From Terebella lapidaria (taxonomy: Eukaryota; Annelida; Polychaeta; Terebellida; Terebellidae): a stretch of 64,000 nt of DNA. Shown here piece by piece: positions 1 to 47,954 of this stretch; the first letter of the stretch is position 1; each line of letters starts with the position of its first letter. The stretch covers positions 37,954,651-38,018,650 of the forward strand of contig OX424558.1 of assembly GCA_949152475.1 (NCBI GenBank), read 5' to 3'. Made by a program: the position numbers and the translations under genes. The notes beneath the pieces were generated by a model. The model ran no database searches, was not told where the DNA came from, and saw nothing but the letters and a program-made list of their open reading frames with translations.

Positions 1-157
1 AACAAGCAGGTTTAATGAAGTCATCCAGGTGTTGTTGTTTTTTACTGAAAGCCCTGGTGACTTGGCCTTGAGACTGCTGGAGCATTAGTGACAGATGGTG
101 AAAACATTGAAGAAGAGTGTAAAAAGAACGGAAGTGAGGAGGTTTAGAAAGAGCCAT
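1..157 (-). pseudogene. PLE copy L, ORF1 N-terminus (cut by window edge)
   Basis: Reading the minus strand from the ATG at 155-157 gives MALSKPPHFRSFYTLL and on to the window edge. The same reading occurs in copy F from the ATG at 9604-9606, so this is the N-terminus of the upstream ORF of a further Penelope-like element that lies mostly left of the window. In copy F this ORF goes on into the NADAR and SGNH domains. No domain is recognisable in the roughly 52 residues seen here. Whether copy L is intact cannot be judged. Confidence 0.55.
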
Positions 158-1000
158 GATACGTTTCAGCAATTAATTTTGAAAGTATTAAAACCAGAAC
201 GTGTTTGATTTGGATGATAAAACCAAAGGATAAAATTATGAAAAATAAAAGCAATTGTATAAAATGAGAACAAAACGTTTGAAGAAACCTGAATGCAAAG
301 ATATGGTCAATAATCTGACCAGTATCTAAAACACAACAAAATAATACAAAACAATATAAAAGAGGTTACTCACAATGTACTCTGCCTGTTGCACGACCGG
401 TTTCGGAGTTGAATCCTTTGTCAAGTGCGGAAGTCTAGAGAACCTACTGTGGTTGCAGTATTTATAGGAAATATTGGCTTGTGCCAATGTCAATTTTGTT
501 TGAGTAAATCAATTAACAGTTTACCAATGGTTGAGCAAATCAATTAGCAGTTTCCAGAACAGTTTGCCAAGAAGAGTGACATATGTTGAGTATAGATAAT
601 TAACAGTTAGTGAATTTAATTGTTTCTTATATGCGTATCTGACACTGAGTAAAACAATTAGCAGTTAGTTGATTGATAAACATAATTAGCGTTTGAAGTT
701 ATATTTTTTGAAGTATGCTGAAAGGAAGTATTTTCAAAATGGTATTACTGCGGTGCTTTCCAGCAATAGATTCTTAGGCAGAGATTTTATTAGGCATGAA
801 ATTGTTTTTTTGAAACTGAAGATGTGTCAAATTGACTTGCATTGCTTCAGGAGACTTCAAATAAAATGCGATGAAATAAAAACAAAATGTACTAAAATGA
901 ACTGAAAAACAAAATATTCATAAAATATTTATAAATGTGTTTTGACTCTTACAATATGCTAGGCACGGGCTAAGTATGTTTTGGAGAGTATAAAAAATGC
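158..1000 (-). mobile_element. PLE copy L, 5' leader
   Basis: This stretch aligns base for base, with scattered differences, to 9,607-10,411 upstream of ORF1 in copy F. It holds no long ORF. It contains a hammerhead-like motif (383-435) and a possible 48-nt intron: GTGAGT at 368-373 and a pyrimidine-rich TTTTAG ending at 326, minus strand. It ends at about 990-1,000, where the 3' tail of copy A (TTTTGGAGAG on the plus strand) begins. Confidence 0.7.
383..435 (-). ncRNA. hammerhead-ribozyme-like motif, degenerate core (copy L)
   Basis: On the minus strand the order is GCAC, then TTGACAA, AGG-loop-CTCC, GAAAC, CGGTC, GTGC. GCAC and GTGC pair as a 4-bp stem I, GG/CC starts stem II, and GAAA is followed by a very short stem III and a GTC cleavage triplet. 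This is the layout of the minimal type I hammerheads known from Penelope-like elements. The CUGANGA box reads TTGACAA, changing C3 and the catalytic G8, so self-cleavage is doubtful. It could be a decayed ribozyme. Confidence 0.4.
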
Positions 1001-1086
1001 ACTGGCACAAGATAATTGTAAGAGTAACACATAACATAAAACAGCAATAAAAATTCAATGAGCGACATTGAACAAATTTTGTTGGA

Positions 1087-2394
1087 TTATTTAAGTTTGC
1101 TTCTGACTAAAAGTTCTTTAAGATTTTGATGCTTCTTGTAAGCTGTTGCTATTTTAATATCACCATCAGTATTTTTGTTGAGTTGTTTCATATGCTTTTT
1201 AACAATTTGGGCTGAAAGAGTACCTGTTTTTGAGAAGGGTACTATATACACCATGTCGAATTTATTTTTACTTTTGTTCAAAGGGTCATACTTTGTAAAT
1301 TTTTGAACGTTGAGGCCATGAGGTTCGAAAGTGCCTAGAGTATCAATCCAACAATATTCCCTTTCAAGTCGCCATTGTTTGTTTAAAAGTTCATCACCAA
1401 GATCGGAAACCTGTTCAATTGGTAAAAGAGAAAAACATTCAATGGAAAATTCAGTTTTGCTGTGAAATTTAGATAGATGACTGTATAATGCATTTTCCTC
1501 ATTGCAGCTAGTTATTGCAGCACGGTGACGATTGTTTCTGAATTTGAGTGATTTACCGGTTTCACCTACATATTGTTTTTCGCAAAGCTTACAAGTGTAT
1601 AGATAAATTATATTTTCTGAGTTGCAATCCAAAGCTGAGTTGATTGAGTAGGTCTGTTCAAAAACTGATCCCGAGAAATTTTGACAATTTGGAACTAAAT
1701 GACATGTCTGACATTGTCTAGAATTACAAGGTTTTGAGCCAGACGAGCTGGAAGTGGGCAATTGAAAATCAGCACCTAGTCTTTCCTCACTGTTCAAAAT
1801 TCTCAATGTTTCATTCTTGATTTTGCGAAGCCAACGTTTTGAATAGTTACGTTTCGAGAGTGCCTTGAATAATGTTTGGCAAGCTGATTCAACATCATCT
1901 GGATATGAGAAAATTTGGAAAAATCGCAAAACTTAGGAGTTGATTAGTCCTTTAGAAGTGTGTTTTGGATGAAAAGAAAGCTTATGCAGCAACTGATGAG
2001 TATCCGTTGGCTTGAAGTAAACTTTTGCTTCTAATGTGTTTTCTTTGCTCCTGAACAAAGTAGGATCCAGAAAATTAACTGAATCAGTATTAATTTCAGC
2101 TTTGAACATGAATATTTCGATAAACTGATTAAATTTGGAAATGCCGTGTGGCCAAATGAGGAAAATGTCATCTAAATACATATAATAGCAATCTGGTTTG
2201 AATGGACACTTTTGTAATGCTTGCTTTTCAATTTCAGCGGTATATCTGCATAATGGGGTGCATAATTCTGACCCATGGCTGTGCCTGGAACTTGTAGGAA
2301 TGTCTTGATCATCAATTTCAAAGTTATTACATTTAAGTAAAATTTCCAATAGTTCTATTATACATTTGAATAGTTCATCTAAAGTGATTAGCAA
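1087..2394 (-). pseudogene. PLE unit A, dead RT plus GIY-YIG endonuclease
   Basis: A 5'-truncated Penelope-like RT/endonuclease. The downstream half (1087-1929) keeps a CCHH zinc motif (CNSRQCQTCH) and a GIY-YIG nuclease (IYLYTC, YVGETG, NNRHR). The upstream half (1933-2394) keeps the RT motif C YLDD. Compared with copy F it has lost 27 codons that include the motif A aspartate. It also has a frame-shifted stretch across motif B (GTAMGQKYAP is absent), a small deletion before FKAEI, and a stop in place of Gln at the RT-endonuclease joint (1930-1932). It cannot make an active RT. Its 3' half resembles copy E (FDMVYIV, KTGTLS) rather than B and C. Confidence 0.9.
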
Positions 2395-2584
2395 AGAATT
2401 TGGATCTAGTTCAAGCTATCGAACTCTATCTAAAAAGTCATACGTATGTATATATGTATGTATTTATGTATGTATGTTTTGGAGAGAATAAAAAATGCAC
2501 TGGCACAAGATAATTGTAAGAGTAACACATAACATAAAACAGCAATAAAAATTCAATGAGCGACATTGAACAAATTTTGTTGGA

Positions 2585-3892
2585 TTATTTAAGTCTGCTT
2601 CTGACTAAAAGTTCTTTAAGGTTTTGATGCTTCTTGTAAGCTGTTGCTATTTTAATATCACCATCAGTATTTTTGTTGAGTTGTTTCATATGCTTTTTAA
2701 CAATTTGGGCCGAAAGAGCACCTGTTTTTGAGAAGGGTACTATATACACCAGGTCGAATTTATTTTTACTTTTGTTCAAAGGGTCATACTTTGTAAATTT
2801 TTGAACGTTGAGGCCATGAGGTTCGAAAGTGCCTAAAGTATCAATCCAACAATATTCCCTTTCAAGTCGCCATTGTTTGTTTAAAAGTTCATCACCAAGA
2901 TCGGAAACCTGTTCAATTGGTAAAAGAGAAAAACATTCGATGGAAAATTCAGTTTTGCTGTGAAATTTAGATAGATGACTGTATAATGCATTTTCCTCAT
3001 TGCAGCTAGTTATTGCAGCACGGTGACGATTGTTTCTGAATTTGAGTGATTTACCGGTTTCACCTACATATTGTTTTTCGCAAAGCTTACAAGTGTATAG
3101 ATAAATTATATTTTCTGAGTTGCAATCCAAAGCTGAGTTGATTGAGTAGGTTTGTTCAAAAACTGATCCTGGGAAATTTTGACAATTTGGGACTATATGA
3201 CATGTCTGACATTGTCTAGAATTACAAGGTTTTGAGCCAGATGAGATGGAAGTGGGCAATTGAAAATCAGCACCTAGTCTTTCCTCACTGTTTAAAATTC
3301 TCAATGTTTCATTCTTCATTTTGCGAAGCCAACGTTTTGAATAGTTACGTTTCGAGAGTGCCTTGAATAATGTTTGGCAAGCTGATTCAACATCATCTGG
3401 ATATGAGAAAATTTGGAAAAATCGCAAAACTTAGGAGTTGATTAGTCCTTTAGAAGTGTGTTTTGGATGAAAAGAAAGCTTATGCAGCAACTGATGAGTA
3501 TCCGTTGGCTTGAAGTAAACTTTTGCTTCTAATGTGTTTTCTTTGCTCCTGAACAAAGTAGGATCCAGAAAATTAACTGAATCAGTATTAATTTCAGCTT
3601 TGAACATGAATATTTCGATAAACTGATTAAATTTGGAAATGCCGTGTGGCCAAATGAGGAAAATGTCATCTAAATACATATAATAGCAATCTGGTTTGAA
3701 TGGACACTTTTGTAATGCTTGCTTTTCAATTTCAGCGGTATATCTGCATAATGGGGTGCATAATTCTGACCCATGGCTGTGCCTGGAACTTGTAGGAATG
3801 TCTTGATCATCAATTTCAAAGTTATTACATTTAAGTAAAATTTCCAATAGTTCTATTATACATTTGAATAGTTCATCTAAAGTGATTAGCAA
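2585..3892 (-). pseudogene. PLE unit B, dead RT plus GIY-YIG endonuclease
   Basis: Second tandem unit, starting exactly 1,498 bp after unit A. It has the same four RT lesions as A: loss of the motif A segment, scrambled motif B, the small deletion before FKAEI, and the stop between RT and endonuclease. The endonuclease half (2585-3427) is open and differs from A at several residues (MKNETL, SISSGS, FDLVYIV). Almost identical to unit C, so the B/C duplication is the most recent step in the array. Confidence 0.9.
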
Positions 3893-4082
3893 AGAATTTG
3901 GATCTAGTTCAAGCTATCGAACTCTATCTAAAAAGTCATACGTATGTATATATGTATGTATTTATGTATGTATGTTTTGGAGAGAATAAAAAATGCACTG
4001 GCACAAGATAATTGTAAGAGTAACACATAACATAAAACAGCAATAAAAATTCAATGAGCGACATTGAACAAATTTTGTTGGA

Positions 4083-5390
4083 TTATTTAAGTCTGCTTCT
4101 GACTAAAAGTTCTTTAAGGTTTTGATGCTTCTTGTAAGCTGTTGCTATTTTAATATCACCATCAGTATTTTTGTTGAGTTGTTTCATATGCTTTTTAACA
4201 ATTTGGGCCGAAAGAGCACCTGTTTTTGAGAAGGGTACTATATACACCAGGTCGAATTTATTTTTACTTTTGTTCAAAGGGTCATACTTTGTAAATTTTT
4301 TAACGTTGAGGCCATGAGGTTCGAAAGTGCCTAAAGTATCAATCCAACAATATTCCCTTTCAAGTCGCCATTGTTTGTTTAAAAGTTCATCACCAAGATC
4401 GGAAACCTGTTCAATTGGTAAAAGAGAAAAACATTCGATGGAAAATTCAGTTTTGCTGTGAAATTTAGATAGATGACTGTATAATGCATTTTCCTCATTG
4501 CAGCTAGTTATTGCAGCACGGTGACGATTGTTTCTGAATTTGAGTGATTTACCGGTTTCACCTACATATTGTTTTTCGCAAAGCTTACAAGTGTATAGAT
4601 AAATTATATTTTCTGAGTTGCAATCCAAAGCTGAGTTGATTGAGTAGGTTTGTTCAAAAACTGATCCTGGGAAATTTTGACAATTTGGGACTATATGACA
4701 TGTCTGACATTGTCTAGAATTACAAGGTTTTGAGCCAGATGAGATGGAAGTGGGCAATTGAAAATCAGCACCTAGTCTTTCCTCACTGTTTAAAATTCTC
4801 AATGTTTCATTCTTCATTTTGCGAAGCCAACGTTTTGAATAGTTACGTTTCGAGAGTGCCTTGAATAATGTTTGGCAAGCTGATTCAACATCATCTGGAT
4901 ATGAGAAAATTTGGAAAAATCGCAAAACTTAGGAGTTGATTAGTCCTTTAGAAGTGTGTTTTGGATGAAAAGAAAGCTTATGCAGCAACTGATGAGTATC
5001 CGTTGGCTTGAAGTAAACTTTTGCTTCTAATGTGTTTTCTTTGCTCCTGAACAAAGTAGGATCCAGAAAATTAACTGAATCAGTATTAATTTCAGCTTTG
5101 AACATGAATATTTCGATAAACTGATTAAATTTGGAAATGCCGTGTGGCCAAATGAGGAAAATGTCATCTAAATACATATAATAGCAATCTGGTTTGAATG
5201 GACACTTTTGTAATGCTTGCTTTTCAATTTCAGCGGTATATCTGCATAATGGGGTGCATAATTCTGACCCATGGCTGTGCCTGGAACTTGTAGGAATGTC
5301 TTGATCATCAATTTCAAAGTTATTACATTTAAGTAAAATTTCCAATAGTTCTATTATACATTTGAATAGTTCATCTAAAGTGATTAGCAA
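4083..5390 (-). pseudogene. PLE unit C, dead RT plus GIY-YIG endonuclease
   Basis: Third unit at the same 1,498-bp period. It differs from B by almost nothing (one visible residue change, Gln to Lys, in the GLNV-KF motif near the endonuclease C-terminus). It carries the same RT lesions. The endonuclease half is 4083-4925 and the RT remnant 4929-5390. The 5' truncation falls at the same base as in A, B and D, next to an ATAC/TATG microsatellite. Confidence 0.9.
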
Positions 5391-5434
5391 AGAATTTGGA
5401 TCTAGTTCAAGCTATCGAACTCTATCTAAAAAGT

Positions 5435-5530
5435 CATACGTATTATATATGTATGTATTTATGTATGTATGTATGTATGTTTTGGAGAGTATACGTATTA
5501 TATATGTATGTATGGATGTATGTTTTGGAG
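5435..5530. repeat. TATG-rich PLE junction (C/F)
   Basis: Interrupted (TATG)n containing two copies of the PLE 3'-tail start TTTTGGAGAG. The same composite junction recurs at 11,880-11,965 and 13,386-13,516, and shorter forms lie at 2,435-2,480 and 3,935-3,978. On the element's own strand these are (CATA)n tails following each PLE 3' end. Confidence 0.75.
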
Positions 5531-5630
5531 AGAATAAAAAATGCACTGGCACAAGATAATTGTAAGAGTAACACATAACATAAAACAGCAATAAAAATTC
5601 AATGAGCGACATTGAACAAATTTTGTTGGA

Positions 5631-7932
5631 TTATTTAAGTCTGCTTCTGACTAAGAGTTCTTTAAGGTTTTGATGCTTCTTGTAAGCTGTTGCTATTTTA
5701 ATATCACCATCAGTATTTTTGTTGAGTTGTTTCATATGCTTTTTAACAATTTGGGCCGAAAGAGCACCTGTTTTTGAGAAGGGTACTATATACACCAGGT
5801 CGAATTTATTTTTACTTTTGTTCAAAGGGTCATACTTTGTAAATTTTTGAACGTTGAGGCCATGAGGTTCGAAAGTACCTAGAGTATCAATCCAACAATA
5901 TTCCCTTTCAAGTCGCCATTGTTTGTTTAAAAGTTCATCACCAAGATCGGAAACCTGTTCAATTGGTAAAAGAGAAAAACATTCGATGGAAAATTCAGTT
6001 TTGCTGTGAAATTTAGATAGATGACTGTATAATGCATTTTCCTCATTGCAGCTAGTTATTGCAGCACGGTGACGATTGTTTCTGAATTTGAGTGATTTAC
6101 CGGTTTCACCTACATATTGTTTTTCGCAAAGCTTACAAGTGTATAGATAAATTATATTTTCTGAGTTGCAATCCAAAGCTGAGTTGATTGAGTAGGTTTG
6201 TTCAAAAACTGATCCCGAGAAATTTTGACAATTTGGAACTAAATGACATGTCTGACATTGTCTAGAATTACAAGGTTTTGAGCCAGACGAGCTGGAAGTG
6301 GGCAATTGAAAATCAGAACCTAATCTTTCCTCACTGTTCAAAATTCTCAATGTTTCATTCTTGATTTTGCGAAGCCAACGTTTTGAATAGTTACGTTTCG
6401 AAAGTGCCTTGAATAATATTTGACAAGCTGATTCAACATCATCTGGATATGAGCAAATTTGGAAAAATCGTAAAACTTGGGACTTGATTAGTCCTTTATA
6501 AGTGTGTTTTGGATGAAAAGAGAGCTTATGCAACAACTGATGAGTATCCGTTGGCTTGAAGAAAACTTTTGCTTCTAATGTGTTTTCTTTGCTCCTGAAC
6601 AAAGTAGTATCCAAAAAATTAACTGAATCAGTACTAATTTCAGCTTTGAACTTGATTGATGCCCTATGAGAATTGAATATTTCGAGAAACTGATTAAATT
6701 TGGAAATGCCGTGTGGCCAAATGAGGAAAATGTCATCTAAATACCTATGATAGCAATCTGGTTTGAATGGACACTTTTGTAATGCTTGCTTTTCAAATTC
6801 AGCCATATAAATATCTGCATAATGAGGTGCATATTTCTGACCCATGGCTGTACCTGAAACTTGTAGGAATGTCTTACCTTCAAATTCAAAGTCATTACAT
6901 TTAAGTGAAATTTCCAATAATTCTATTATACCTTTGAATAGTTCATTGTTTTTCAGAGTCGGGAATGCATTTTTAATTGCTTGGATACCTTCTTCATGAT
7001 TTATATTAGTATACATACTTTCAACATCTAAAGTGATTAGTAAAGAATTTGGATCTAGTTCAAGCCCTCTAACTTTATCTAAAAAGTCATACGTGTTTTT
7101 TATATGACGGATGCTTATTTGCTTGATCTTTTATATATGAATCAATATACATAGCTACTTTTTCAGATTCACTGCTGCAGTCAGAAACAATTGGACGCCC
7201 TGGAGGCATTACATTTGGAATTGGCCAGGAGTCTTTGGGTTTATGAATTTTAGGTAGCATATAAAATCTTCTTTGACGAGGGCGTTCTGGTGGTAAAAGA
7301 AATTGGAATACTTTTTCAGAAAGGCATCCAGAACTGCGTAATCCTTTTAAAATTTTTGTTATTTTTTCTGAATTTTCTAGGTAAAGGGGAGTGTCAATTT
7401 CTCTGTAATGAGCTGGATTTTATAATTGACGAAGGCCTTCATTAATATAATTTTGCCTATCCATAATTACGACTGCACTACCTTTATCTGCTTTTTTGAT
7501 TACCAAGTCTACGTTATTTTGTAAATCCTTTATAGTTTTATATTCCATTTTCGTTAGGTTTTTGGTTTCTGGTTGAATTTTCAGATTTTCAATTTCTTTA
7601 GATATTGCCGAAATGCAATCTAAAACAGGCTTGTCAATCATGGAACTGGGTGGAGTCCAGGTAGATTTTGGAGTGAATTTTGATCTATGTGTAAATGAAT
7701 TTGGACGGTGAGAAAAATAACTTTGAAGTTTGAGTTTTCTACCAAAATCTTGCACAGCTTGTTCAATTGGATCCAATGTTATTTTGGGTGTGGGAACAAA
7801 AGTCAAACCACGATTAAGAAGAGCGATTTGTGTGTCCAAAAGTGTAAATTTGGAAAGGTTTACAACATTATTAGTCGTACTGGAGTTCGGTGGACTCTCA
7901 GAATGATTTAGTTTAAATGACTGAGCCAGCAT
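5631..7932 (-). pseudogene. PLE copy F ORF2: reverse transcriptase - GIY-YIG endonuclease (broken)
   Basis: Would copy element RNA by target-primed reverse transcription in the nucleus. The N-terminal part (7,420-7,932) has LLNRGLTFVPTP and ADKGSAVVIMD, typical of PLE RTs. The middle reads FYMLPKIHKP and PPGRPIVSD. Next come motif A LDVESMYTNI, motif B GTAMGQKYAP and motif C YLDDIF. A CCHH zinc motif and a GIY-YIG domain (IYLYTC, YVGETG, RNNRHR, EREYCWI, P-GLN) follow. The long open part is 5,631-7,016 (461 codons). Lesions: an in-frame TAA at 7,420-7,422 and a one-base frame change near 7,120-7,130. The ATG at 7,932 lies inside the end of ORF1; frame and heptamer suggest ORF2 was read by -1 frameshifting instead of, or besides, its own start. 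Confidence 0.88.
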
Positions 7933-9606
7933 TTCAACATTTCGTTGGCCGTTTGTTCAGTCCAATGAATGTTATCTGTCTGTGTAGAAAACTTGATTGG
8001 ATCCAATTGTTTAACAACTGTGAGATTGCTGAAACGTGAACTCATGTCATCCAAAGCCCTGTTAATCATATCCAAGTTGCGTTTCTCTACAGACGGAAGA
8101 TTGTCTGAGTAGTTAATTTTTGGAATGAGAATTTTGGAGTGGGGGAAGATTCGGAAAGCACTGCTGAGCATATTCCTCAGCTCTGGAATTGAAGTAACAC
8201 TTGGTTTGGAGCTTCGATTGTTCAGGCCTACACTTAAGATTAAGTTTTTGGGGGCATCAAATGATTTTTTACAGGCCGTGAACATCATTCTTAGATGGTT
8301 GAACAAAGCTCCAGGATAAGACACAACTTGGATATCACTGACAGGGGATTTGGTGATGCGAGAAAGGTTAGAAGAGCCGAGGATGACAGTGGAGGAGGTT
8401 AGTTTAGGAAGGGCCCAAAGAGTTTTGGGTCCTCTGATAGTGGAAGGAGAGACATGGAAAGTGGTGTTAGGAGAGTTTTTAGGAGAGACCAAGCGAGTGC
8501 GTTTGCCTTTAGGTAGAGAGGAGGGTGAGAGTTCAGGAGAAGAAGGAGAGCGCGGACGCCGTTTGGGCGTGGCACTAAGGCGGTTATCAGGAGAAGAGCG
8601 AGAGAGAGGTGGCCAATCATCAGATGATGATAGGCAAGGAGGGTTAGAGAGGGTATCAAGGAGTTGGAAGCGGTTAGAAGTGGACACAGAGGGAGGGGTG
8701 TTATTTGAGGATGGAGGTACAGAGCGAGATGGTTTAGGTTTGTTAATAGGAGAGTTGGCACGTTTTAGGTCCATTAGGAGGCAGCCAAAGAAGTTAGAGC
8801 CTTGACCATGACGGTTAACACCCCAGTGGCTGTCAGGAACTGGATGGACAATGTGACACCCTTCAGGAAGACCCATCAGAGTGTCACGGAACAATTTGCA
8901 AGAATTAAACTTAACTTGAAGAAGTTGACGCATGATTCCATTTTTACTTTTATGCCAGAACGGGGACAGGCTAGGAATTTCACTAGCCAAACGTTTGGCC
9001 ACTCCTGCATGGGGAGCCCTAAGGATCCGATTGGCTAGGTGTTGACAGTCATGGTACCGGGCTTTGTGATACTGATAGATGTGCTCAAGGTTAGGGAATC
9101 TCATACCACGATAGGATATATTACATGGAAAGAAATTACTAAGTGGGTGTTTGTGACCTTTAACCTCACAAGTCTGAGGTTTTGATTGAGAGTTAGAATT
9201 TGGAATAGGGGAATTTGGAAGAGTGGAGCTTTTGAATTTATGGATGGTGGAAGCCTGAAGTTTTTTGCCGAAATGAGATTTAGCCTGCTGAATGACGAGA
9301 GCTACCGAATTTGCAATGTCCGAATCAGATAAACCTAAAGAGGAAATGTGGGCCAAAAGGTTTTGAATTGAGCTCTCGTAGTGTTCCACCAATTGTTTGG
9401 TCACGTTTTGTACCCAATTTTGATTGATTTTGTTTGATTAGAGGACCAGAACAAGCAGGTTTGATGAAGTCATCCAGGTGTTGTTGTTTTTTACTGAAAG
9501 CCCTGGTGACTTGGCCTTGAGACTGCTGGAGCATTAGTGACAGGTGGTGAAAGCATTGAAGGAGAGTGTAAAAAGAACGGAAGTGAGGAGGTTTAGAAAG
9601 AGCCAT
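7908..9606 (-). CDS. PLE copy F ORF1: NADAR (YbiA-like) plus SGNH/GDSL-like hydrolase
   Basis: The long frame is 7,908-9,404 (about 498 codons). It has no ATG near its start. The likely true start is the ATG at 9,604-9,606 in another frame, joined by a one-base change near 9,430. Counting from 9,404, residues ~84-214 form a NADAR domain: PLSNFFPC, PNLEHIYQ with the conserved Glu (~107), FW (~150) and DSHWG (~191-195). NADAR enzymes act on N-glycosidic or ADP-ribose adducts. A Ser/Pro-rich, basic linker follows (~215-325). Residues ~335-498 look like an SGNH hydrolase: ILGSSN (Ser), SYPG (Gly), VGLNN (Asn), DNIHW (Asp/His), so all four blocks keep their key residues. GDSL-like esterases are known in some LINE ORF1 proteins; I do not recall a NADAR plus SGNH ORF1 in a PLE. 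Roles are inferred. Confidence 0.8.
7911..7917 (-). other. predicted -1 ribosomal frameshift site
   Basis: Minus strand T TTA AAC, with TTA and AAC in the ORF1 frame, directly followed by the ORF1 stop TAA (7,908-7,910). Slipping one base back puts the ribosome exactly in the ORF2 frame. The downstream stem I can see is weak (GAGT/ACTC, about 12 nt on), so efficiency is uncertain. Confidence 0.6.
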
Positions 9607-9830
9607 GATACGTTTCAGCAATTAAATTTGAAAGCATTAAAACCAGAACGCGATTGATTTGGATGATAAAACCGAAGGATAAAATCATAAAAATAAAAAC
9701 AATTGTATAAAATGGAAACAAAATGCTCGAAGAAGTCTGAATGCAAAGATATGGTCAATAATCTGACCAGATCTAAAACAAAACAAAATAATACAAAACA
9801 ATATCAAAAGAAGGTTACTCACAATGTACT

Positions 9831-9884
9831 CTGCCTGTTGCACGACCGGTTTCGGAGTTGAATCCTTTGTCAAGTGCTGAAGTC
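9831..9884 (-). ncRNA. hammerhead-ribozyme-like motif, degenerate core (copy F)
   Basis: Second copy of the motif at 383-435, with the same TTGACAA core, GAAAC, GTC and GCAC/GTGC stem I. Both copies share the same two departures from the CUGANGA core, so the change is ancestral to this lineage or the motif is used in another way. A possible 50-nt intron follows (GTGAGT at 9,817-9,822, TAG ending at 9,773), as known for the 5' leader of Penelope itself. Confidence 0.4.
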
Positions 9885-10524
9885 TAAAGAACCTACTGTG
9901 GTTGCAGTATTTATAGGAAATATTGGCTTGTGCCAATGTCAATTTTGTTTGAGTAAATCAATTAACAGTTTTCCAATGGTTGAGCAAATCAATTAGCAGT
10001 TTTCAGAACAGTTTGTCAAGAAAAGTGACATATGTTGAGTATAGATAATTAACAGTTAATGAATTCAATTGTTTTTGATATGCGTATCTGACACTGAGTA
10101 AAACAATTAGCAGTTAGTTGATTGACAAACATAATTAACGTTTGAAGTTATATTTTCTGAAGTATGCTAAAATAAATAATTTTCAAAATGGTATTACTGC
10201 GGTGCTTTCCAGCAATAGATTCTTAGGCAGAGATTTTATTAGGCATGAAATTGTTTTTTGAAACTGAAGATGTGTCAAATTGACTTGCATTGCTTCAGGA
10301 GACTTCAAATAAAATGAGATGAAATAAAAACAAAATGTACTAAAATGAACTGAAAAACAAAATATTTATAAAATGTGTTTTGACCCTTACAATATGCTAG
10401 GCACGGGCTAAGTATGTTTTGGAGAGAATAAAAAATGCACTGGCACAAGATAATTGTAAGAGTAACACATAACATAAAACAGCAATAAAAATTCAATGAG
10501 CGACATTGAACAAATTTTGTTGGA

Positions 10525-11832
10525 TTATTTAAGTCTGCTTCTGACTAAGAGTTCTTTAAGGTTTTGATGCTTCTTGTAAGCTGTTGCTATTTTAATATCA
10601 CCATCAGTATTTTTGTTGAGTTGTTTCATATGCTTTTTAACAATTTGGGCCGAAAGAGCACCTGTTTTTGAGAAGGGTACTATATACACCAGGTCGAATT
10701 TATTTTTACTTTTGTTCAAAGGGTCATACTTTGTAAATTTTTGAACGTTGAGGCCATGAGGTTCGAAAGTGCCTAGAGTATCAATCCAACAATATTCCCT
10801 TTCAAGTCGCCATTGTTTGTTTAAAAGTTCATCACCAAGATCGGAAACCTGTTCAATTGGTAAAAGAGAAAAACATTCGATGGAAAATTCAGTTTTGCTG
10901 TGAAATTTAGATAGATGACTGTATAATGCATTTTCCTCATTGCAGCTAGTTATTGCAGCACGGTGACGATTGTTTCTGAATTTGAGTGATTTACCGGTTT
11001 CACCTACATATTGTTTTTCGCAAAGCTTACAAGTGTATAGATAAATTATATTTTCTGAGTTGCAATCCAAAGCTGAGTTGATTGAGTAGGTTTGTTCAAA
11101 AACTGATCCCGAGAAATTTTGACAATTTGGAACTAAATGACATGTCTGACATTGTCTAGAATTACAAGGTTTTGAGCCAGACGAGCTGGAAGTGGGCAAT
11201 TGAAAATCAGAACCTAATCTTTCCTCACTGTTCAAAATTCTCAATGTTTCATTCTTGATTTTGCGAAGCCAACGTTTTGAATAGTTACGTTTCGAAAGTG
11301 CCTTGAATAATATTTGACAAGCTGATTCAACATCATCTGGATATGAGAAAATTTGGAAAAATCGCAAAACTTAGGAGTTGATTAGTCCTTTAGAAGTGTG
11401 TTTTGGATGAAAAGAAAGCTTATGCAGCAACTGATGAGTATCCGTTGGCTTGAAGTAAACTTTTGCTTCTAATGTGTTTTCTTTGCTCCTGAACAAAGTA
11501 GGATCCAGAAAATTAACTGAATCAGTATTAATTTCAGCTTTGAACATGAATATTTCGATAAACTGATTAAATTTGGAAATGCCGTGTGGCCAAATGAGGA
11601 AAATGTCATCTAAATACATATAATAGCAATCTGGTTTGAATGGACACTTTTGTAATGCTTGCTTTTCAATTTCAGCGGTATATCTGCATAATGGGGTGCA
11701 TAATTCTGACCCATGGCTGTGCCTGGAACTTGTAGGAATGTCTTGATCATCAATTTCAAAGTTATTACATTTAAGTAAAATTTCCAATAGTTCTATTATA
11801 CATTTGAATAGTTCATCTAAAGTGATTAGCAA
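10525..11832 (-). pseudogene. PLE unit D, dead RT plus GIY-YIG endonuclease
   Basis: Same dead RT half (11,371-11,832) as units A-C, with the same deletion, scrambled motif B and stop. Its endonuclease half (10,525-11,367) instead matches copy F (ERLGSDFQ, FKALSKRNYSKRW with CQIL). It is therefore a mosaic, best explained by recombination or gene conversion inside the array. It occupies the same position relative to F's 5' end as unit A does to L's. Confidence 0.9.
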
Positions 11833-12066
11833 AGAATTTGGATCTAGTTCAAGCTATCGAACTCTATCTAAAAAGTCATACGTATTATATTTATGTATGT
11901 ATGTATGTATGTTTTGGAGAGTATACGTATTATATATGTATGTATGGATGTATGTATGTTTTGGAGAGTATAAAAAATGCACTGGCACAAGATAATTGTA
12001 AGAGTAACACATAACATAAAACAGCAATAAAAATTCAATGAGCGACATTGAACAAATTTTGTTGGA

Positions 12067-13385
12067 TTATTTAAGTTTGCTTCTGACTAAAAGTTCTTTA
12101 AGATTTTGATGCTTCTTGTAAGCTGTTGCTATTTTAATATCACCATCAGTATTTTTGTTGAGTTGTTTCATATGCTTTTTAACAATTTGGGCTGAAAGAG
12201 TACCTGTTTTTGAGAAGGGTACTATATACACCATGTCGAATTTATTTTTACTTTTGTTCAAAGGGTCATACTTTGTAAATTTTTGAACGTTGAGGCCATG
12301 AGGTTCGAAAGTGCCTAGAGTATCAATCCAACAATATTCCCTTTCAAGTCGCCATTGTTTGTTTAAAAGTTCATCACCAAGATCGGAAACCTGTTCAATT
12401 GGTAAAAGAGAAAAACATTCAATGGAAAATTCAGTTTTGCTGTGAAATTTAGATAGATGACTGTATAATGCATTTTCCTCATTGCAGCTAGTTATTGCAG
12501 CACGGTGACGATTGTTTCTGAATTTGAGTGATTTACCGGTTTCACCTACATATTGTTTTTCGCAAAGCTTACAAGTGTATAGATAAATTATATTTTCTGA
12601 GTTGCAATCCAAAGCTGAGTTGATTGAGTAGGTCTGTTCAAAAACTGATCCCGAGAAATTTTGACAATTTGGAACTAAATGACATGTCTGACATTGTCTA
12701 GAATTACAAGGTTTTGAGCCAGACGAGCTGGAAGTGGGCAATTGAAAATCAGCACCTAGTCTTTCCTCACTGTTCAAAATTCTCAATGTTTCATTCTTGA
12801 TTTTGCGAAGCCAACGTTTTGAATAGTTACGTTTCGAAAGTGCCTTGAATAATATTTGACAAGCTGATTCAACATCATCTGGATATGAGCAAATTTGGAA
12901 AAATCGAAAAACTTGGGACTTGATTAGTCCTTTATAAGTGTGTTTTGGATGAAAAGAGAGCTTATGCAACAACTGATGAGTATCCGTTGGCTTGAAGAAA
13001 ACTTTTGCTTCTAATGTGTTTTCTTTGCTCCTGAACAAAGTAGTATCCAAAAAATTAACTGAATCAGTACTAATTTCAGCTTTGAAGTTGATTGATGCCC
13101 TATGAGAATTGAAAATTTCGAGAAACTGGTGAAATTTGGAAATGCCATGTGGCCAAATGAGGAAAATGTCATCTAAATACCTAAAATAGCAATCTGGTTT
13201 GAATGGACACTTTTGTAAAGCTTGCTTTTCAAATTCAGCCATATAAATATCTGCATAATGAGGTGCATATTTCTGACCCATGGCTGTGCCTGAAACTTGT
13301 AGGAATGTCTTACCGTCAAATTCAAAGTCATTACATTTAAGTGAAATTTCCAATAATTCTATTATACCTTTGAATAGTTCATTGT
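12067..13385 (-). pseudogene. PLE unit E, 5'-truncated RT plus GIY-YIG endonuclease
   Basis: Open for 428 codons (12,067-13,353), starting after RT motif A and containing motif B (GTAMGQKYAP), motif C (YLDDIF), FLDTTLF, the CCHH motif and the complete GIY-YIG domain. Unlike A-D it has no internal stop. The 5' truncation falls inside the NNELF segment at 13,385, next to the TATG microsatellite. Lacking the N-terminal RT half, it should be inactive as an RT; the nuclease could fold. Its 3' half resembles unit A. Confidence 0.88.
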
Positions 13386-13484
13386 TTGTTATGTATGTAT
13401 GTATGTATGTTTTGGAGAGTATACGTATTATATATGTATGTATGGATGTATGTATGTATGTATGTATGTATGTATGTATGTATG

Positions 13485-13516
<32 letters not shown>
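13386..13516. repeat. (TATG)n microsatellite at array edge
   Basis: Long, nearly pure TATG run with one PLE tail fragment (TTTTGGAGAG). It marks the right edge of the PLE array and stops about 45 bp before the splice acceptor of the next gene. ORFs reading MYVCMYVC across it are artefacts. Confidence 0.9.
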
Positions 13517-13517
<1 letters not shown>

Positions 13518-13561
13518 GTCTATGTTAAGGCACTACGAGATATGTATGTTATTCTATGCAG

Positions 13562-16500
13562 TACAACATCGAGGCCTTGTATATGCGAGCTCTGAAACAT
13601 GATGTGCTCAGAGAGAATCTAGACGCTCCTGGAGACGTGCAAATAAAAACCCCGACAGTCAAGAGAACCAACAAGGTATTCCTTACGGTGGCCCGGCACT
13701 GCGATCTCGAGACGCGACAGAAGCACTTAATCGACTACAACCAACACGACCATGTCGTCCGAGAACTGGAGAAAGTTGTCGACTCAGTCTTGCACTCTGT
13801 GCACGATGGCTTCTTGTACAAAGGTCACTTCGGTCACGTGGGAAGCTTCGCCGATGAGTGCAGAGTGGGACAGAGCTGGTCTGAAATGGACTTACTCTAC
13901 GTGATAATAAGTAATTTCACTTTTAAGAATCGAGAGGAGGATGTTTGCATTTATGATATCACTACCAGTGGTGGTGAACAACTCAGTGCGAGACGACTCA
14001 TTGCAGAGTTCGCAGATGCAGTGGAGATGGCCCTGCAGACATGCCCACATATTGGAGAGGATAAGGTTCTCCAGCATGGTGGGTACAACTCGCCTCGGTT
14101 CAGTGGTGTCCGATTCAATGGGCCAGCCATCACGATACTCCTGCGGTATGTCCATGAAACTAACAGAGAGCGAGAGGGTATTGATGCAGATACGAGAGAT
14201 AATGACGACATCATGGAGATATCCATTGACCTCACGCCAGCCTTCAAGTTGAGAGTGGACTGTGAAGAAGTCCAGACACTTCGTGCAAATATGAAACCGG
14301 CGCAGGAAATTTTATCCAGGAAGTTGGTTTCAAAGACTGATTTACATTTGATACCGTGTATCAAGGAGGACGCCTGGATTCTGACAACTGCTCAAGTGGA
14401 GGCGAAACTCTTCTCTACTCTGCCCGACAACTCATCCCTGAAAATGGCTTTCGCTCTCGGTAAGATTGTCTGCCATCACAGTGCCTACACAGCTCCCGGC
14501 AGGACAAAATTCCAGGACGGAATCCTCCAAGCAGTAAACATCGCGAAGGAGCGTTCGATTGACGATGAGAGGTGCCAGATCTGGAACAGATCTATGCGCT
14601 ACGCTCACAGTTTCTTGTCAAGCACTGATGGTGCTGCGTTGGGCGAATTCACGAAAGCTGATGTTTCGCTCAACAGCGCAGCAATAAAGCACATCCTCTT
14701 GAAGAAGGCACTCCAAGATCCGCAATTCTTCCGGGAGAGCACACCAGCCGAACAGATCCGCGACTTCAAGACACTGGTCGTCGGAATGTTCAGAGAAATA
14801 AATCAACTGAAAGAATCATGTGTCCCGCATGCTCTCCTCGAAAACACTCATAAATGCATTCTCTTTGTCCAAGTGTGAAGTAATTGGTGATAGCCGGTTG
14901 AAGCTGAAACAATTCATGAGGTCCAAATGTAATCTGGATGACCTCTTCGACAGAGTTAGTATTATTTTTCTTCTACACGTAGTCACATTTCATGTTTCTA
15001 TCATGATAATTTGAACCCGTTTCTTCCCAAGTTTAAGTACATTCATACACGATGGTTGGCCATCGTTTGTGGTTTGGTATCTAACGTGTCGCAACTATAC
15101 TCATACAGGAAATACGTGACGAATTCAAAGAGAGAACTCGCAACACTTTACTGAATCATGCAGCTAGTGGGGGCCAACTACTCATGATTCAACTACTGAT
15201 TGGAGCAGGTATTACCTAAGTGTATTGTGTATTGAAGTGGATGATCATTCACTACCGCATATGAGTATGAATTTCAATATTGTTATGCTGAGGGAAAAGG
15301 TGTAACATTGTAAGGTGCTGCAGTGTCACAACAGTTATGGCACACAGGCACAGACTATTGACAACACCCCTGTGATGGGTTATACCTCTTTATCGTATGG
15401 TCGCCGAATTTTACATTGTTGCCGTACTCTTTGCAATATTTCTGGAGTGGTCACAAATTTCTGTTTCTCAGTGAGGGACACGTGAACCTTGATAATTAAT
15501 GATCTTTGAATTATCGATCGGGAACCGATTACTAGTAAAAAATATTGAATTCGGTCTCAATGACCCCAGACCCGGGTCCAAAACGATAGGTTCCCACATA
15601 ACATTTCTGATCAGCAGTGAAAATTTCGACACATGTATTCACACAAGTTATCGATCGTAAACCAGAATGGAGGAAAGTGAAAGAAACTAACTCAGACAAA
15701 ACCATGAAGGAAATTCCCTGATGAAATAACTGCACATGTTGCAAAGACGATCAAATGTCCTTATGTTATTTGAGTTTCGCTCTAACACCAATGCCACGAA
15801 TGGAACATTGCACCAGGGACAGACTTGAACGCTGAGAGTCGGAAGGGGATGACTGCCCTGCACCGAGCTAGTTCAAATGGACACATCGAAGTGGTCAAGG
15901 AGTTATTGGACCATGACGCTGATGTCCAGCGTGGGCAGCATCAACCGCTGTGTGGCGCTGCACTCCGTGGACAACTTGACGTCATCAAACTGCTTCTCGT
16001 TAGAGGTCTGACCCGACTATTGTTACTTCCTCAGCGCTTTCGTCGTATTAAGAAAATATATTACATACACTATTATATTATTTATGGTTACATTATTATA
16101 TTATTTATGGCTGTAAAATAACATGTCCATATGATTGCAAGGGGCTAAACCTGACATTGAAGACTCGTTTGGAAAGACAGCCTTGTACAAAGCAAGCTTC
16201 AGTGGCCACATTGGTGTGGCTGAGGAGTTGGTGAGGCGAGGTGCATCTGTTGAGAAAGGAAAGTACAAACCACTAGGAGGAGCAGCTGTCAATGGCCAGC
16301 TAGCGCTCGTCAAGTGGCTCATTGAGAAAGGTAGACCTATATGTAGCCCCTATCCTTCCCCGATCACAGGGACTAAATATCTGACGTCAATATAGAATCA
16401 ACCAGAGAGGTGTGGATATTTGGAGGTAGCAATGTTTGTCTTCGGGTGACATTCCCTCATCTATACAATGTCATCATATATCCGTGTGTGTAAACTTCAG

Positions 16501-24300: not shown

Positions 24301-27300
24301 AAAGTACAAGTAAAATGAATATGCATCGACCATAATATAGGCATTTCATTGGTTTCCTTATATTGGCAACAATAGGACAAAGAAAATATACTGATCACTC
24401 ATATTGAAAACTTATGGAGTATATGATTAACATCTCTGAAATAATACCAAACTATCCAATTGAAGAAGCCGCACAGATTTATAATTTTATGAATATACCT
24501 CATTTCATGTTTAATAGCTAAATAATTTCTAAAAAACAAAACAATTATACCATTTTCATTCATGAACATGTTGCATATTTCTAAGAGATAGTGATATAGG
24601 AACTTCACTATAGTTTTTAATTCGATAGTTTGGTCTGTATTATTCAATATTTAATGTTGTAATGGTCCATCATATAACCCTATTCAACATAGTGTTCAAT
24701 ATGAATAATGTGACTCGAAACATATTTCCATTTTACTTGAACTTTAAATGCCCAGGACATAAGTCGATTTATCGAGATAATTAACTCGATTTATCGAGAT
24801 AACTAACTCGATTTATCGAGATAATAAGTCAATTTATCGAGATAATATCTCGATTTATCGAGATAATAAGTCGATTTATCGAGATAATTAACTCGATTTA
24901 TCGAGATATCAAGTCGATTTATCGAGATAATTAAGTCGATTTATCGAGATAAATAACTCGATATATCTAGATAATATCTCGATTTATCGAGATAATAAGT
25001 CGATTGATCGAGATAATAAGTCGATTTATTGAGATAATTAACTCGATTTATCAAGTCGATTTATCGAGGTAATTAACTCGATTTATCGAGATAAATAACT
25101 CGATTTATCGAGATAATATCTCGATTTATCGAGATAATAAGTCGATAAATCGAGATAATAAGTCGACAAATTGAATTGAAAAAAAAAACTCATGTGGCCC
25201 TAATAGGCTTCCGTATTACCTGTACAGCTGTATTATCATATTTTCGTCCCTTTTTTCCCAAACCAGATATTCCGTGGATGCTGCTATTAGCCTAATAGAT
25301 TCTGTTACACCAGCCTGTGCAAATGTTCACTGGCCTGTGCAGATCGACGGACCGATCACATTGCGAACCCCGCTGTATCACACAGACGCCCCTGACGCGT
25401 GACACGAGACAATTGTAAACTACACTTCACAAAATACTAGTAACTAGGTGAAGCCCGCGCAATGCGCGCAACGTATGTCCACCGTGGAATCGCTCACTGC
25501 CCGTCACTGCGGAGACCTCCCAAACGGAAATAGTTCAACTTACAACGAATATAGTAGTACCGGGCGACAGCCCGGACAATGATTAAACTTACGTTCCTAT
25601 CTTCGAGCAGATTTCAGCATCGGCAGCGACTGCCGCAAATCTGTAGTGGCCAGTAGCCGATCGGGGTTCCTGGTCATCATCCTCTCGTGGGGGTTCGCTC
25701 GTTGGTTTAGGTGTAGGTTTTGGTTCATCTCGTACTTTCCCTAATCCAACCACCACTGCCAGGGCTATAATGCAGGCTAGCATAGCAACGAACAGCACAG
25801 CCAGGAAAATCCTGCCACTGCTACACAAGGCACAAGGAAAACAAACAAGTATATATTGGTGTTTTGACAAATCAAATATTCCTCAGTATAGTCTGTATTT
25901 CTAATTATACACACTACACAATCTTCTCTGAAAGCGAGAGTTCATGTAGCCTGTAGGTTCTGTGTATGTGTAGATTATATCCATGCATTTGATTCTGTTC
26001 CAAAATGACTGCAAAATGACATTCATGGACAATTTTACTTCTAGTGAAAGCTATATATTCGCATTTGTGGCTGATAAAATCTGCTGGATTAACATTGTTT
26101 CACATGCACTACACGTATAGGCACTCGTCAGGTTTATACATTCAGCCATTCCCTTTCTACATTATATGTCAATGAAATTGTACAAAGAACATGAACAATT
26201 GCGCTGTCCTGCTATATAATATATAAACGAGTATTTTCTTGAACAAAATATGCTCATCTATGCCAATCATATGTGTGTTGGGTTTGAATCTATGGAATGA
26301 TTTCTAGGCCAAATGAATATATTGCAGATTTGTTTTGTGACGAACATTATTTATTGGTTAATACAACAGAAACAAAGATTTTTGTTTTTAACAATGAGTG
26401 TCGGATGAAACGTGAAGAAAAGGTGTTATGTTGCTGTCCAAAAAAATTAGACTGTGACAGTCACTATAGACATTCAAGTATTATGTTTTCAAGTAGACTA
26501 AGATTGAAACCAACCATAAATGTCTAATCCACTCAAAGCATAAGTATTATGATGGTATGAACTTGATATAATTTTTGTTTATTCTGGCAATTAGCCCATA
26601 TGCAGAAATGCATAGTCGCAGGGGTGATACACCGATAACAGCATGACATAAACTTATGTGCATAATGATTCATTGTGATGTCGTACAACATGAGACGAAC
26701 TAATGTTACCACACGCTGAGCTCATAAAGCTCGATCTGAAATATGTGATTACACCATGATGGTGTCTTTGTTTGGGCTTCAGGCAGTAAGCTTTTGGTTT
26801 GTGATTTCGTACTCATGTACAAAGAACATTTTACACAATGTCTACCCCTGACTTTGTGTATATTAATATTTGGTTGGGCTATTCCTAATCCAAAGCGATG
26901 TTATCGCCATAATACATGCCGATAAGCTGAATGCACGAATATGCTCAACAATTCAAATATATAAACGTGTGAACATATTTAATGGTGCAAAACGCCACTT
27001 CATACTTGAGCGTCAAACCACTGCACCCCGAAGCATAAATATCGCCAACATCTCACTGCTCAGAAAGTTGTGTATAAAATCACTCGTGTCTAGTCAAGCC
27101 ATGTTGTAAAACACGTCCATGATATTAGGTACCTACGTACTCCCACTGCCTTTTGTTTGAATATGTAAAATCTCCTGAAACAATTGTGGTGTAGTCACCA
27201 AGAGGAAATTGCAAACGGTAAATCACCAGTACTAAGATATTTTGCTCTTATATGATAATCAATGATAATGATATGATATTTAATGATCAATGATAATGAT

Positions 27301-46560: not shown

Positions 46561-47948
46561 TGTAACGGTTTTGGGGCGTACCCAAAGGTTTCCCCTAGGT
46601 AATTCTGTTAGTGTTTTGTGATATTATGGTTAAATAACCGTTTATTAGGGTGTATATGTGTTTAAAGGTTCATACGGTTCCGTATTGTTAATGTTTTAAA
46701 GGTTTTCCGTCTCGGAACTTAGTAATTTATGATGTCGGTAAAGCCGGAGACGGAGCCGGAACCGGAGACGGAACCGGACACGGAGCCGGAACAATGGAGT
46801 ACAAAAACGTAATGACGTTATTTCCGGAAGGTCATGTGATCAGCCTCGTTTTCGGTTTAAAAGGTGACGTGTCAGCCACTGATTGGTTCTAGAGTGTTTT
46901 TAGAAATCCGGAAAATATCAGTGTTTTGGCGGACTATGACGTCACAATAGGTTGGTCACGTGACGTGGGTCTCAGGTCTATAAAAGCCCCCGCTTCACAG
47001 CGGACGGCGGAGTTGGTGTCCTGACGTCGACCTGTGCAGACCCCTTCTCCCATAGCAGAGTACTCCCTTGTTCCGGATAGAGTCATCCAGATGATAGCAG
47101 TTAAGTCTTCCGACTGTGAACTTGGAAAATAAACATGAAAACTTCAACCGAGTTGTTTTTCCGTGTTCGTTAGGGAACTGGAAGTTATAATAAAGTTAGT
47201 TTCCCGGAAAAGACAGTTATACGGAGTAAAGGGAGATAAGACTACAGTCGGTAAAGACCAAGTTGTAACGACGTCTTAGGGTGATCTAAGAACCCAGATC
47301 ACCGAGGAATGAGTCGGAGACGGAGACGGAGGTGGAAATCAACGGAGCAACTACGGAGGCGGTATCGGACGGAGCAGTTGCAGAGACGGGAACGACGAAG
47401 CAGTTGCAGAGGCGGTACCGGACGACGGAGTTGCAGAGGCAGTACCTGACGGAGCGGTTGCGGTAACCGGAAGTAGGAACACTTCCGAGATACTCCATTT
47501 CAGGTGCAGTCGCAGGTTGCGGTGAGGCGGAGCCAACCGGAGCAGATTGCAGTGCGGCGGAACCTGGCAGAGCGGTTGCAGTATTCGGAAACGGCAACGT
47601 TCCCGGATTCTTTATTCCAGGCGCAGTCGCAGTTTGCAGTAAGACGGAAAACGACGGAGCTGTTGCAGTAAAGCGGTATCCCGACGGAGCAGTTGCAGTA
47701 CCCGGAGACGGAAACGCCTTCGGATCCTTACTTTACAGGTGCAGTTGCAGATTAGCAGTCGGACTACGGTTAAGAGGTCCATTCCAGACCACGCTACCAA
47801 CCTTAGAGACTTCTAGCCGGAGTTCAACCGTACAGCAGTAGCAGTTTCCCGGAGTTTTACCGTTTCAGCTCCGGTTAAACAACAACTCACCCACCTCCCT
47901 AGAAACCCGGTTCATCAAGACGTCACAGAAGGGTGCAAACCCGTTACA
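46561..47948 (+). repeat. 5' LTR
   Basis: 1,388 bp, TGTAACGG to CCGTTACA. Contains a promoter (46,937-46,985), AATAAA at 47,128-47,133 and many GGAG-G-TTGCAG-type imperfect repeats. It includes a 52-bp segment missing from the 3' LTR, bounded by GCAGTTGCA direct repeats. Confidence 0.95.
46937..46985 (+). promoter_or_regulatory. LTR promoter (CRE, E-box, TATA)
   Basis: TGACGTCA at 46,937-46,944, GTCACGTGAC at 46,955-46,964 and TATAAAA at 46,979-46,985. An inverted CCAAT box (ATTGG) lies about 60 bp upstream. Transcription should begin about 25-30 bp past the TATA box. Confidence 0.75.
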
Positions 47949-47954
47949 ACTTTT

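Follow-up and report, generated by a model that had tools for sequence, protein, structure and literature searches.

The window, a 64,000-nucleotide stretch of Terebella lapidaria DNA, contains on its minus strand a two-ORF Penelope-like retroelement (PLE). ORF1 (9606..7908) encodes, in order, a helical N-terminus, a NADAR domain, a linker and an SGNH hydrolase, and an ORF2 encoding a reverse transcriptase (RT) with a GIY-YIG endonuclease lies immediately downstream (Table 1). This copy is broken. The N-terminal part of ORF1, separated from the remainder by a change of frame in the window, joins it in frame in the copies at L009, the left flank, and in the homologue P0001; the Foldseek and VIA rows give this helical domain scant coverage.

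Table 1. Features of the PLE and of neighbouring PLE copies in the window
Feature	Position	Strand	Remarks
Neighbouring copy, 5' part	1..657	-	its ORF1 runs into the left flank (L009)
5'-truncated PLE copies	974..5390	-	1,498-bp repeat spacing
ORF2 remainder, RT and GIY-YIG endonuclease	5631..7016	-	RVT_1 31.9 bits; GIY-YIG 20.1 bits (below cut-off)
ORF2 first part (PLE RT N-terminus)	7420..7932	-	overlaps ORF1; hits a stop in the window copy
Main ORF1 frame (remaining helical N-terminus, NADAR, linker, SGNH)	7908..9404	-	498 aa
TTTAAAC heptamer	7911..7917	-	abuts ORF1 stop TAA (7910-7908); candidate -1 frameshift site
SGNH hydrolase domain	7911..8438	-	GSSN, YPG, GLNN, DNIH
Ser/Pro-rich linker, predicted disordered	8442..8747	-	P0001 model pLDDT <50, residues 288-390
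NADAR domain, ORF1 residues 84-215	8760..9155	-	Pfam PF08719, E=1.5e-15, and fold
ORF1 N-terminal part	9325..9621	-	ATG at 9606; frame differs from the rest in the window copy
Further partial PLE copies	10525..13353	-	upstream of the ORF1-bearing copy

The RVT_1 profile scores 31.9-44.6 bits against a cut-off of 29.6 in the window copy and its homologues, and these RTs carry GLTFVPTP, which we take to be the N-terminal PLE motif. C-terminal to the RT, the GIY-YIG profile gives 18.9-21.8 bits in the same set, all below its cut-off of 22.6. The ORF2 RT retrieved 1035 homologues. Tandem or partial-tandem arrangement, a PLE trait, is present in the window, at L009 and among the copies elsewhere in this genome, where 20 neighbouring ORF1 pairs are spaced 4,907-4,924 bp; the neighbour copy on the L009 side contains 95-96% repeats of 9450-9699 and 9807-10106. 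Hammerhead ribozymes in the pLTR are common among PLEs but not universal. The Rfam hammerhead models gave no match in window positions 1-14000 or in L009; a degenerate string at 9874-9849 is one that we take to resemble a hammerhead.

Conservation of the NADAR–SGNH ORF1

The preliminary description had read NADAR motifs followed by SGNH blocks on the same strand as, and upstream of, the PLE RT, and this is confirmed by profiles, folds and copies. The best 86 of 1,234 candidate ORF1 copies in this genome cover residues 1-498 (one covers 2-498), including both domains, and are 97–100% identical, with an inner stop in two of the 86. At least 50 of these best 86 have an ORF2 that overlaps ORF1, starting no more than 40 nt away on the same strand, and 20 of 20 copies fetched run on into ORF2. 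The family has been recently amplified.

Eight diverged ORF1 homologues retain NADAR and SGNH, homologues at 45-47% identity were found, and five of the eight apparently lie on the same contigs as PLE RTs that are 48–75% identical. Absence of either domain from other family members, which would have counted against the preliminary description, is not seen in the best 86 copies but does occur in the more distant ORF1s P0008 and P0010, in which the N-terminus and SGNH are present and NADAR is absent. Judged from these sequences, NADAR interrupts an N-terminus–SGNH ORF1 plan that occurs elsewhere without it. Because distant PLE ORF1s lack NADAR, the domain is dispensable to PLEs in general. Gain and loss of NADAR on the RT tree amount to 6 changes against a shuffled mean of 5.9, a comparison that is uninformative since ORF1 is unknown for most rows.

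The NADAR domain belongs to its superfamily by both family profile (Table 1) and its fold match to YbiA. With E43 and K50 of the P. nicotianae NADAR as reference, the catalytic Glu and Lys are E178 and K185, which, like Trp265, are invariant in 6/6 homologues and 23/23 copies; Asp262 is absent from P0003 and P0132. The third catalytic Glu, which precedes DxxWG in the YbiA subfamily, is replaced by Val, Ser, Thr or Ala in all nine PLE NADARs. All nine align a His with that of T4 gp30.3. Placement of this invariant His in the YbiA Glu column itself was rejected, the His lying one column off and adjoining it; E. coli YbiA has a His in that same column beside its Glu. Whether or not this neighbouring His takes over from the lost Glu, the alignment is compatible with either. 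T4 gp30.3 shares the His and likewise lacks the Glu but, unlike the PLE NADAR, is a stand-alone protein, and its very long branch in the NADAR tree gives no sign of kinship with the PLE domains. These form a clade of their own in the tree, apart from the LINE NADARs of this genome, as expected under repeated recruitment.

Profile significance, the check proposed for both domains, was obtained for NADAR but not for SGNH, since Pfam GDSL at its curated cut-off left the window protein unmatched (best homologue 24 bits versus 32.9). SGNH is nonetheless supported by a profile match to the ZfL2-1 LINE ORF1 esterase (PDB 4c1b, E=3e-4) and by a fold match to PAF-AH, the domain having the alpha/beta SGNH fold. 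The four-block residues S416, G436, N466 and H551 are invariant in 6/6 homologues and 23/23 copies, whereas the Asp at -3 from the His is not retained in P0002, P0005 and P0007. Across 23 copies the variant ratio per site is 0.20 for NADAR, 0.24 for SGNH and 0.43 for the linker, values lowered by the choice of copies, which were the top entries in a ranking on protein score; within this biased sample, nonsynonymous change is low in both domains. The claim of a PLE ORF1 joining NADAR to SGNH is upheld by frames open in many copies, by retention of key residues and by this low nonsynonymous change, and to this extent the preliminary interpretation is supported in part.

Related domains in other elements

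Retroelements with NADAR were already known, as were PLEs with SGNH. Esterase-bearing PLEs include Penelope entries in PMC3905857, as well as fish and mollusc Neptune-like PLEs and the Athena/Terminons of bdelloid rotifers (PMC5408684). These likewise have an SGNH hydrolase beside a PLE RT, and the N-terminus–SGNH plan of P0008 and P0010 is probably of this kind; NADAR goes unmentioned in the available portions of both papers, the comparison being one of descriptions, not sequences. NADAR has been described in ORF1 of Crassostrea gigas Tx1 LINEs, where its position matches that in the PLE, and in an Ectocarpus Gypsy (PMC12477816), both of them retroelements but of other classes. This genome's LINEs likewise have an ORF1 NADAR, but they keep the YbiA Glu and fall in a different NADAR clade; where SGNH is present, in a few of these LINEs, it occupies a separate ORF. 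The ZfL2-1 LINE ORF1 (PDB 4c1b, PMC3905857) is also a retroelement ORF1 with an SGNH hydrolase but, unlike the PLE ORF1, combines the esterase with a coiled coil and is NADAR-free. The pairing of NADAR with SGNH in a PLE, of which the preliminary description knew no example, did not turn up in searches of open-licence PMC papers; subscription papers and Repbase could differ.

Animal RNA virus polyproteins carry NADARs together with their own polymerase, and these have been proposed to counter host ADP-ribosylation, a likeness drawn from the description in PMC9503650. A search of viral contigs with A1 gave 260 pattern matches, none of them confirmed. A candidate Gypsy with NADAR (L010, 812-aa frame) was set aside, as inspection read it as a 5'-truncated NADAR LINE nested in a gypsy. 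The gypsy at L010 is of the kind found at window positions 47842-53492.

The ORF1–ORF2 junction

The heptamer U_UUA_AAC stands right at the end of ORF1, before the stop, in 20/20 fetched copies, which suggests that the RT is joined to NADAR–SGNH by -1 frameshifting. The junction fits X_XXY_YYZ, with the zero-frame heptamer preceding the stop and the -1 frame open into ORF2. LN ends ORF1 in 10/12 distant homologues, and the FKL motif occurs in 19/24 RT homologues that reach that far. Against frameshifting, no significant stimulatory structure was found downstream of the heptamer (130-nt fold, z -1.13, by a tool blind to pseudoknots). In 6/20 fetched copies and in the window copy, moreover, the ORF2 frame has an ATG five codons ahead of FKL, and the predicted start of several RT homologues is a Met directly ahead of FKL, as it would be if ORF2 were expressed by reinitiation or from its own start. 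This alternative, a rival to the expression step only, seems to us fairly unlikely: 14/20 copies lack the ATG yet retain the heptamer, and the LN-stop/FKL double reading recurs in distant families. A functional U_UUA_AAC junction would give these PLEs a gag-pol-like expression strategy.

Possible roles of the ORF1 protein

NADARs reverse guanine ADP-ribosylation in bacterial toxin–antitoxin systems. PMC11543638 reports that NADARs, one from an oomycete among them, remove ADP-ribose from guanine, and PMC11125620 reports this for a phage NADAR. The retention of a NADAR–esterase fusion in a recently amplified family, with the RT as its probable third partner, suggests that the element's own nucleic acid is a substrate. 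We propose that ORF1p acts as a gag-position accessory protein made up of the helical N-terminus, NADAR, a flexible linker and the SGNH esterase. ORF2 would probably be translated as an ORF1–ORF2 fusion via -1 ribosomal frameshifting, yielding mostly ORF1p and a minority of NADAR-SGNH-RT-endonuclease. Within an RNA–protein particle, NADAR would most likely strip ADP-ribose (from guanine, by precedent) off template RNA or nascent cDNA, which would thereby be protected from host ADP-ribosylation, and SGNH would most likely serve in a lipid or acyl-ester role, as has been proposed for the esterases of LINE ORF1s. The chances of this proposal as a whole are, in our estimate, evenly balanced. Against it stand the replaced YbiA Glu, the Asp residues missing from individual homologues in NADAR and in SGNH, and the NADAR-less ORF1s of distant PLEs, as well as the fact that we know of no ADP-ribosylating anti-retroelement system in a host such as this one.

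Loss of the YbiA Glu would suit a non-catalytic, structural NADAR, an RNA-associated module of the particle that binds nucleic acid, ADP-ribose or NAD-capped ends; the authors of PMC9303266, in the available text, are undecided on whether the proteins treated there are enzymatic. The invariance of Glu178, Lys185 and Trp265 argues against such a module, as does T4 gp30.3, which likewise has His without Glu and is among the phage NADARs reported active (PMC11125620), and we consider it unlikely, if credible. NADAR might otherwise act as an N-glycosidase on small molecules or on by-products of RNA processing, such as ADP-ribose derivatives and NAD caps, serving the RNA metabolism of the element rather than counter-defence. 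YbiA works on riboflavin intermediates (PMC11543638), RNA processing has been suggested for retroelement NADARs (PMC12477816), and small ADP-ribose derivatives are discussed in PMC9503650. The probable RT fusion, deduced from the junction, would place NADAR at nucleic acid instead, and sequence gives no discrimination between substrates; we rate this role as improbable. An accident of the locus, whether a LINE nested in the PLE, a chimeric copy or a faulty assembly, could be imagined where LINE NADARs are abundant and such nesting is known at L010. We regard it as extraordinarily improbable: the same structure recurs in the best 86 copies, the fetched copies run on into ORF2, homologues exist at 45-47% identity and the PLE NADARs are separate from those of LINEs. 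Chimera formation and LINE insertion into a PLE were accordingly rejected on copies, ORF2 continuity, NADAR tree and diverged homologues.

That PLEs and LINEs each captured NADAR on their own speaks for a recurrent need and against accident. A wider reading, which we advance tentatively and with more doubt than belief, is that PLEs, with a His-type NADAR, and LINEs, with a Glu-type one, both at times with SGNH, are unrelated classes that in one genome independently gained an active nucleic-acid de-ADP-ribosylase in ORF1, with a coronavirus-type frameshift by which the PLE would deliver the antidote in cis with its RT. If true, it would follow that animals possess an as yet undescribed defence in which ADP-ribose is attached to retroelement RNA or cDNA. 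The substrate question can be tested with one purified domain. Our findings suggest that the ORF1 protein could neutralize a chemical assault by the host on the element's genetic material.

Conservation of NADAR and SGNH in Penelope-like elements

A protein search with ORF1 of the Penelope-like element (PLE) gave 11 matches (P0001–P0011). P0001 is 98% identical to ORF1, P0002–P0006 are 45–47% identical over the entire query, and P0007 has both NADAR and SGNH with a longer linker. P0132 and P0133, found by a search with NADAR alone, also show SGNH similarity. The NADAR–SGNH fusion proposed for this PLE in the preliminary description is real, conserved and found in a recently amplified family. 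Among related proteins it extends to P0002–P0007, P0132 and P0133 but not to P0008–P0010, which have SGNH similarity without NADAR. P0011 (502 aa) combines NADAR with a cysteine-rich segment and lacks SGNH similarity.

The source and the length of the longest contig recorded for P0002, P0003, P0004, P0007 and P0132 (5762/ena, 4805/jgi, 5375/ena, 5246/ena and 14721/ena) match those of PLE reverse transcriptases (RTs) that are 70, 69, 64, 48 and 75% identical, respectively, to the RT piece of the window; from these matches we infer that each ORF1 shares a contig with its RT. No RT partner of matching source and length was present for P0005, P0006 or P0133 among the 120 RTs listed. In a quick RT tree (100 rows), where NADAR status covers only the six NADAR-linked rows and gives no basis for a count of gains or losses, five of the six lie inside one 11-row clade (support 100) and the sixth, P0049, lies outside it within a 23-row group (87). 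The 11-row clade has support 100/100 in a careful tree of 33 rows.

Alignments of P0008 and P0010 to P0001 cover the N terminus (34% and 33%; E=2e-20 and 2e-14) and SGNH (E=2e-31 and 3e-22, respectively), with the NADAR segment absent between these two regions. On these alignments, NADAR looks like a cassette added to an ORF1 of N terminus and SGNH; the alternative is that NADAR was lost in P0008 and P0010.

Copies and anatomy of the element

The window covers positions 37954651–38018650 of contig C4 in a 762-Mb genome (438 contigs), whose size, LINEs and Mab-21-like frame point to an invertebrate. Other copies in this genome span both domains: the best 86 of 1,234 ORF1 candidates, including the window copy, lie on 15 contigs and cover residues 1–498 (one 2–498) at 97–100% identity. 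Two of the 86 contain an inner TGA, a count for the top-scoring copies and not a measure of the intact share of all copies. An open frame of at least 750 aa follows in 126 of the best 150 of 428 ORF2 N termini, and in at least 50 of the best 86 ORF1 copies ORF2 starts, on the same strand, no more than 40 nt from where ORF1 ends.

A comparison of 23 copies (20 drawn from the 86, the window copy and two from L009, the left flank) gives a per-site nonsynonymous/synonymous variant ratio of 0.25 for whole ORF1 and of 0.19, 0.20, 0.43 and 0.24 for the N terminus, NADAR, linker and SGNH, respectively; ranking by protein score lowers these ratios, the contrast between domains and linker being less affected. 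For variants common to at least two copies, the ratio is 0.04 in NADAR (7 synonymous, 1 nonsynonymous), 0.25 in SGNH (8 and 7) and 0.38 in the linker (4 and 4).

In the window copy the initial ~70 ORF1 residues are out of frame with the other 498, and ORF2 is broken by a stop at 7422–7420 and a change of frame near 7100. Each of the two additional copies in L009 has an ORF1 frame of 574 aa, and a long open ORF2 is present in one of them. A string in the window and L009, CTTGACAAAGGATTCAACTCCGAAACCGGTC, resembles a degenerate hammerhead ribozyme core; a scan of window 1–14000 and L009 against Rfam found no hammerhead. The PLE unit is ~4.9 kb and arranged head to tail, with 20 pairs of adjacent ORF1s in this genome spaced 4,907–4,924 bp; passages of PMC11167929 and PMC3846280 treat tandem PLE structure.

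Coordinates of features in the window and at related loci
Feature	Location	Strand	Remarks
ORF1	window 9606..7908	-	N terminus, NADAR, linker, SGNH; ATG at 9606
ORF2	window 7932..5631	-	RVT_1 and GIY-YIG (latter under its Pfam cut-off)
U_UUA_AAC heptamer	window 7917-7911; L032-L051 (fetched ORF1 copies)	- (window)	candidate -1 frameshift site directly 5' of ORF1 stop
CTTGACAAAGGATTCAACTCCGAAACCGGTC string	window 9874-9849, 425-400; L009 9425-9400, 4507-4482	-	
5'-truncated PLE copies	window 974-5817, 10412-13473		~1.5 kb head-to-tail repeats
(TATG)n microsatellite	window 5449-5516, 11885-11959, 13389-13514		at truncated-PLE junctions
440-aa frame	window 13556-14878	+	weak Mab-21 nucleotidyltransferase match (22.6 bits; cut-off 24.1)
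Tandem array, 21-bp period (ATAACTCGATTTATCGAGATA)	window 24759-25166		
Gypsy-like LTR element	window 47842-57448	+	gag-like frame with zinc knuckle, 1454-aa pol frame; two more zinc-finger-like frames downstream
42-bp tandem repeat	window 51690-52002		coding, inside Gypsy-like pol
Tandem array, 43-bp period	window 59445-59868		
NADAR ORF1, GDSL/SGNH ORF, endonuclease-RT ORF	L014:3044-5129; L021:3113-5133; L025:3315-5335		in this order
812-aa frame	L010:3962-6397	-	aspartyl protease, RT and NADAR, then LINE RT

The ORF1–ORF2 junction

ORF1 ends in T_TTA_AAC in all 20 fetched copies, followed by TAA (19) or TAG (1). In these copies the -1 frame past the heptamer reads FKL(N/D)HSES...GLTFVPTP, the RT N terminus, and an ORF2-frame ATG five codons 5' of FKL is present in six and absent from 14. 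Among 120 RT homologues, 24 begin 20 or more residues ahead of the NLS motif; FKL occurs in 19 of these, FKR in two and neither in three. LN is terminal in 10 of 12 ORF1 homologues and one residue earlier in the other two. These amino-acid signatures suggest that the heptamer may be kept in PLEs beyond the window family. No significant fold was found downstream of it. The portion of PMC5009743 searched counts U_UUA_AAC as one of the most shift-prone -1 sites for mammalian ribosomes and does not contain 'Penelope'; among the matches listed from the open-licence PMC literature, no paper stood out on programmed frameshifting in a PLE.

NADAR residues, LINE counterparts and possible function

Mutagenesis described in part of PMC11543638 identifies Glu and Lys as key to NADAR (E43/K50 in P. 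nicotianae). E178 and K185 are invariant in 6/6 homologues and 23/23 copies; K208, W221 and W265 do not vary among those six homologues; at D262, P0003 has Cys and P0132 has His. The third catalytic Glu of Escherichia coli YbiA is missing from 9/9 aligned PLE NADARs and present in 7/7 LINE NADARs. All nine PLE NADARs, and P0011 too, carry His in the column that follows, which is also the column of the phage T4 gp30.3 His; a section of PMC11125620 describes this residue type for phage NADARs. Because YbiA has both the Glu and that His, the His alone is no proof of phage origin. The PLE NADARs group in a single clade (98/95) in a tree of 28 rows, with the 15 LINE NADARs on the opposite side and the split taking one label change in 200/200 bootstrap trees; the branching order near the base is uncertain, and YbiA, P0011 and T4 gp30.3 sit on long branches. 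Of the non-PLE rows, the ORF1-like P0011 lies nearest to the PLE NADARs.

At least 150 NADAR loci in the genome exceed the Pfam cut-off (the best 150 of 973 candidates), and NADAR is heavily amplified at the C-terminal end of ORF1 in two or more LINE types, where it has the canonical YbiA Glu. At 20 hand-picked loci, NADAR precedes an RT like that of locus L014, which we take to be L1/Tx1-like, in eight cases and a second LINE type in 11; one has no RT within the fetched stretch. Three of the 20 (L014 and the near-copies L021 and L025) have a separate GDSL hydrolase ORF 3' of NADAR, that of L014 matching PF13472 (E=2.8e-12) and the others assigned by similarity to it. The NADAR and SGNH pair is common to these LINEs and the PLE, but its construction differs, the LINEs using separate ORFs. 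We read the 812-aa frame at locus L010 as a gypsy element holding a nested, truncated LINE that is joined to it in frame.

Each half of the PLE fusion had retroelement precedents: sections of PMC12477816 describe NADAR in an oyster Tx1 LINE ORF1 and an Ectocarpus Gypsy, and parts of PMC3905857 and PMC5408684 describe SGNH in PLEs. Viral NADARs and nematode SNA-3 are covered in parts of PMC9503650 and PMC9303266, respectively. Among the matches listed from the open-licence PMC literature, none stood out as dealing with NADAR in a PLE. The most economical functional reading is that NADAR would remove ADP-ribose from the element's own nucleic acid and may thereby act as a counter-defence.
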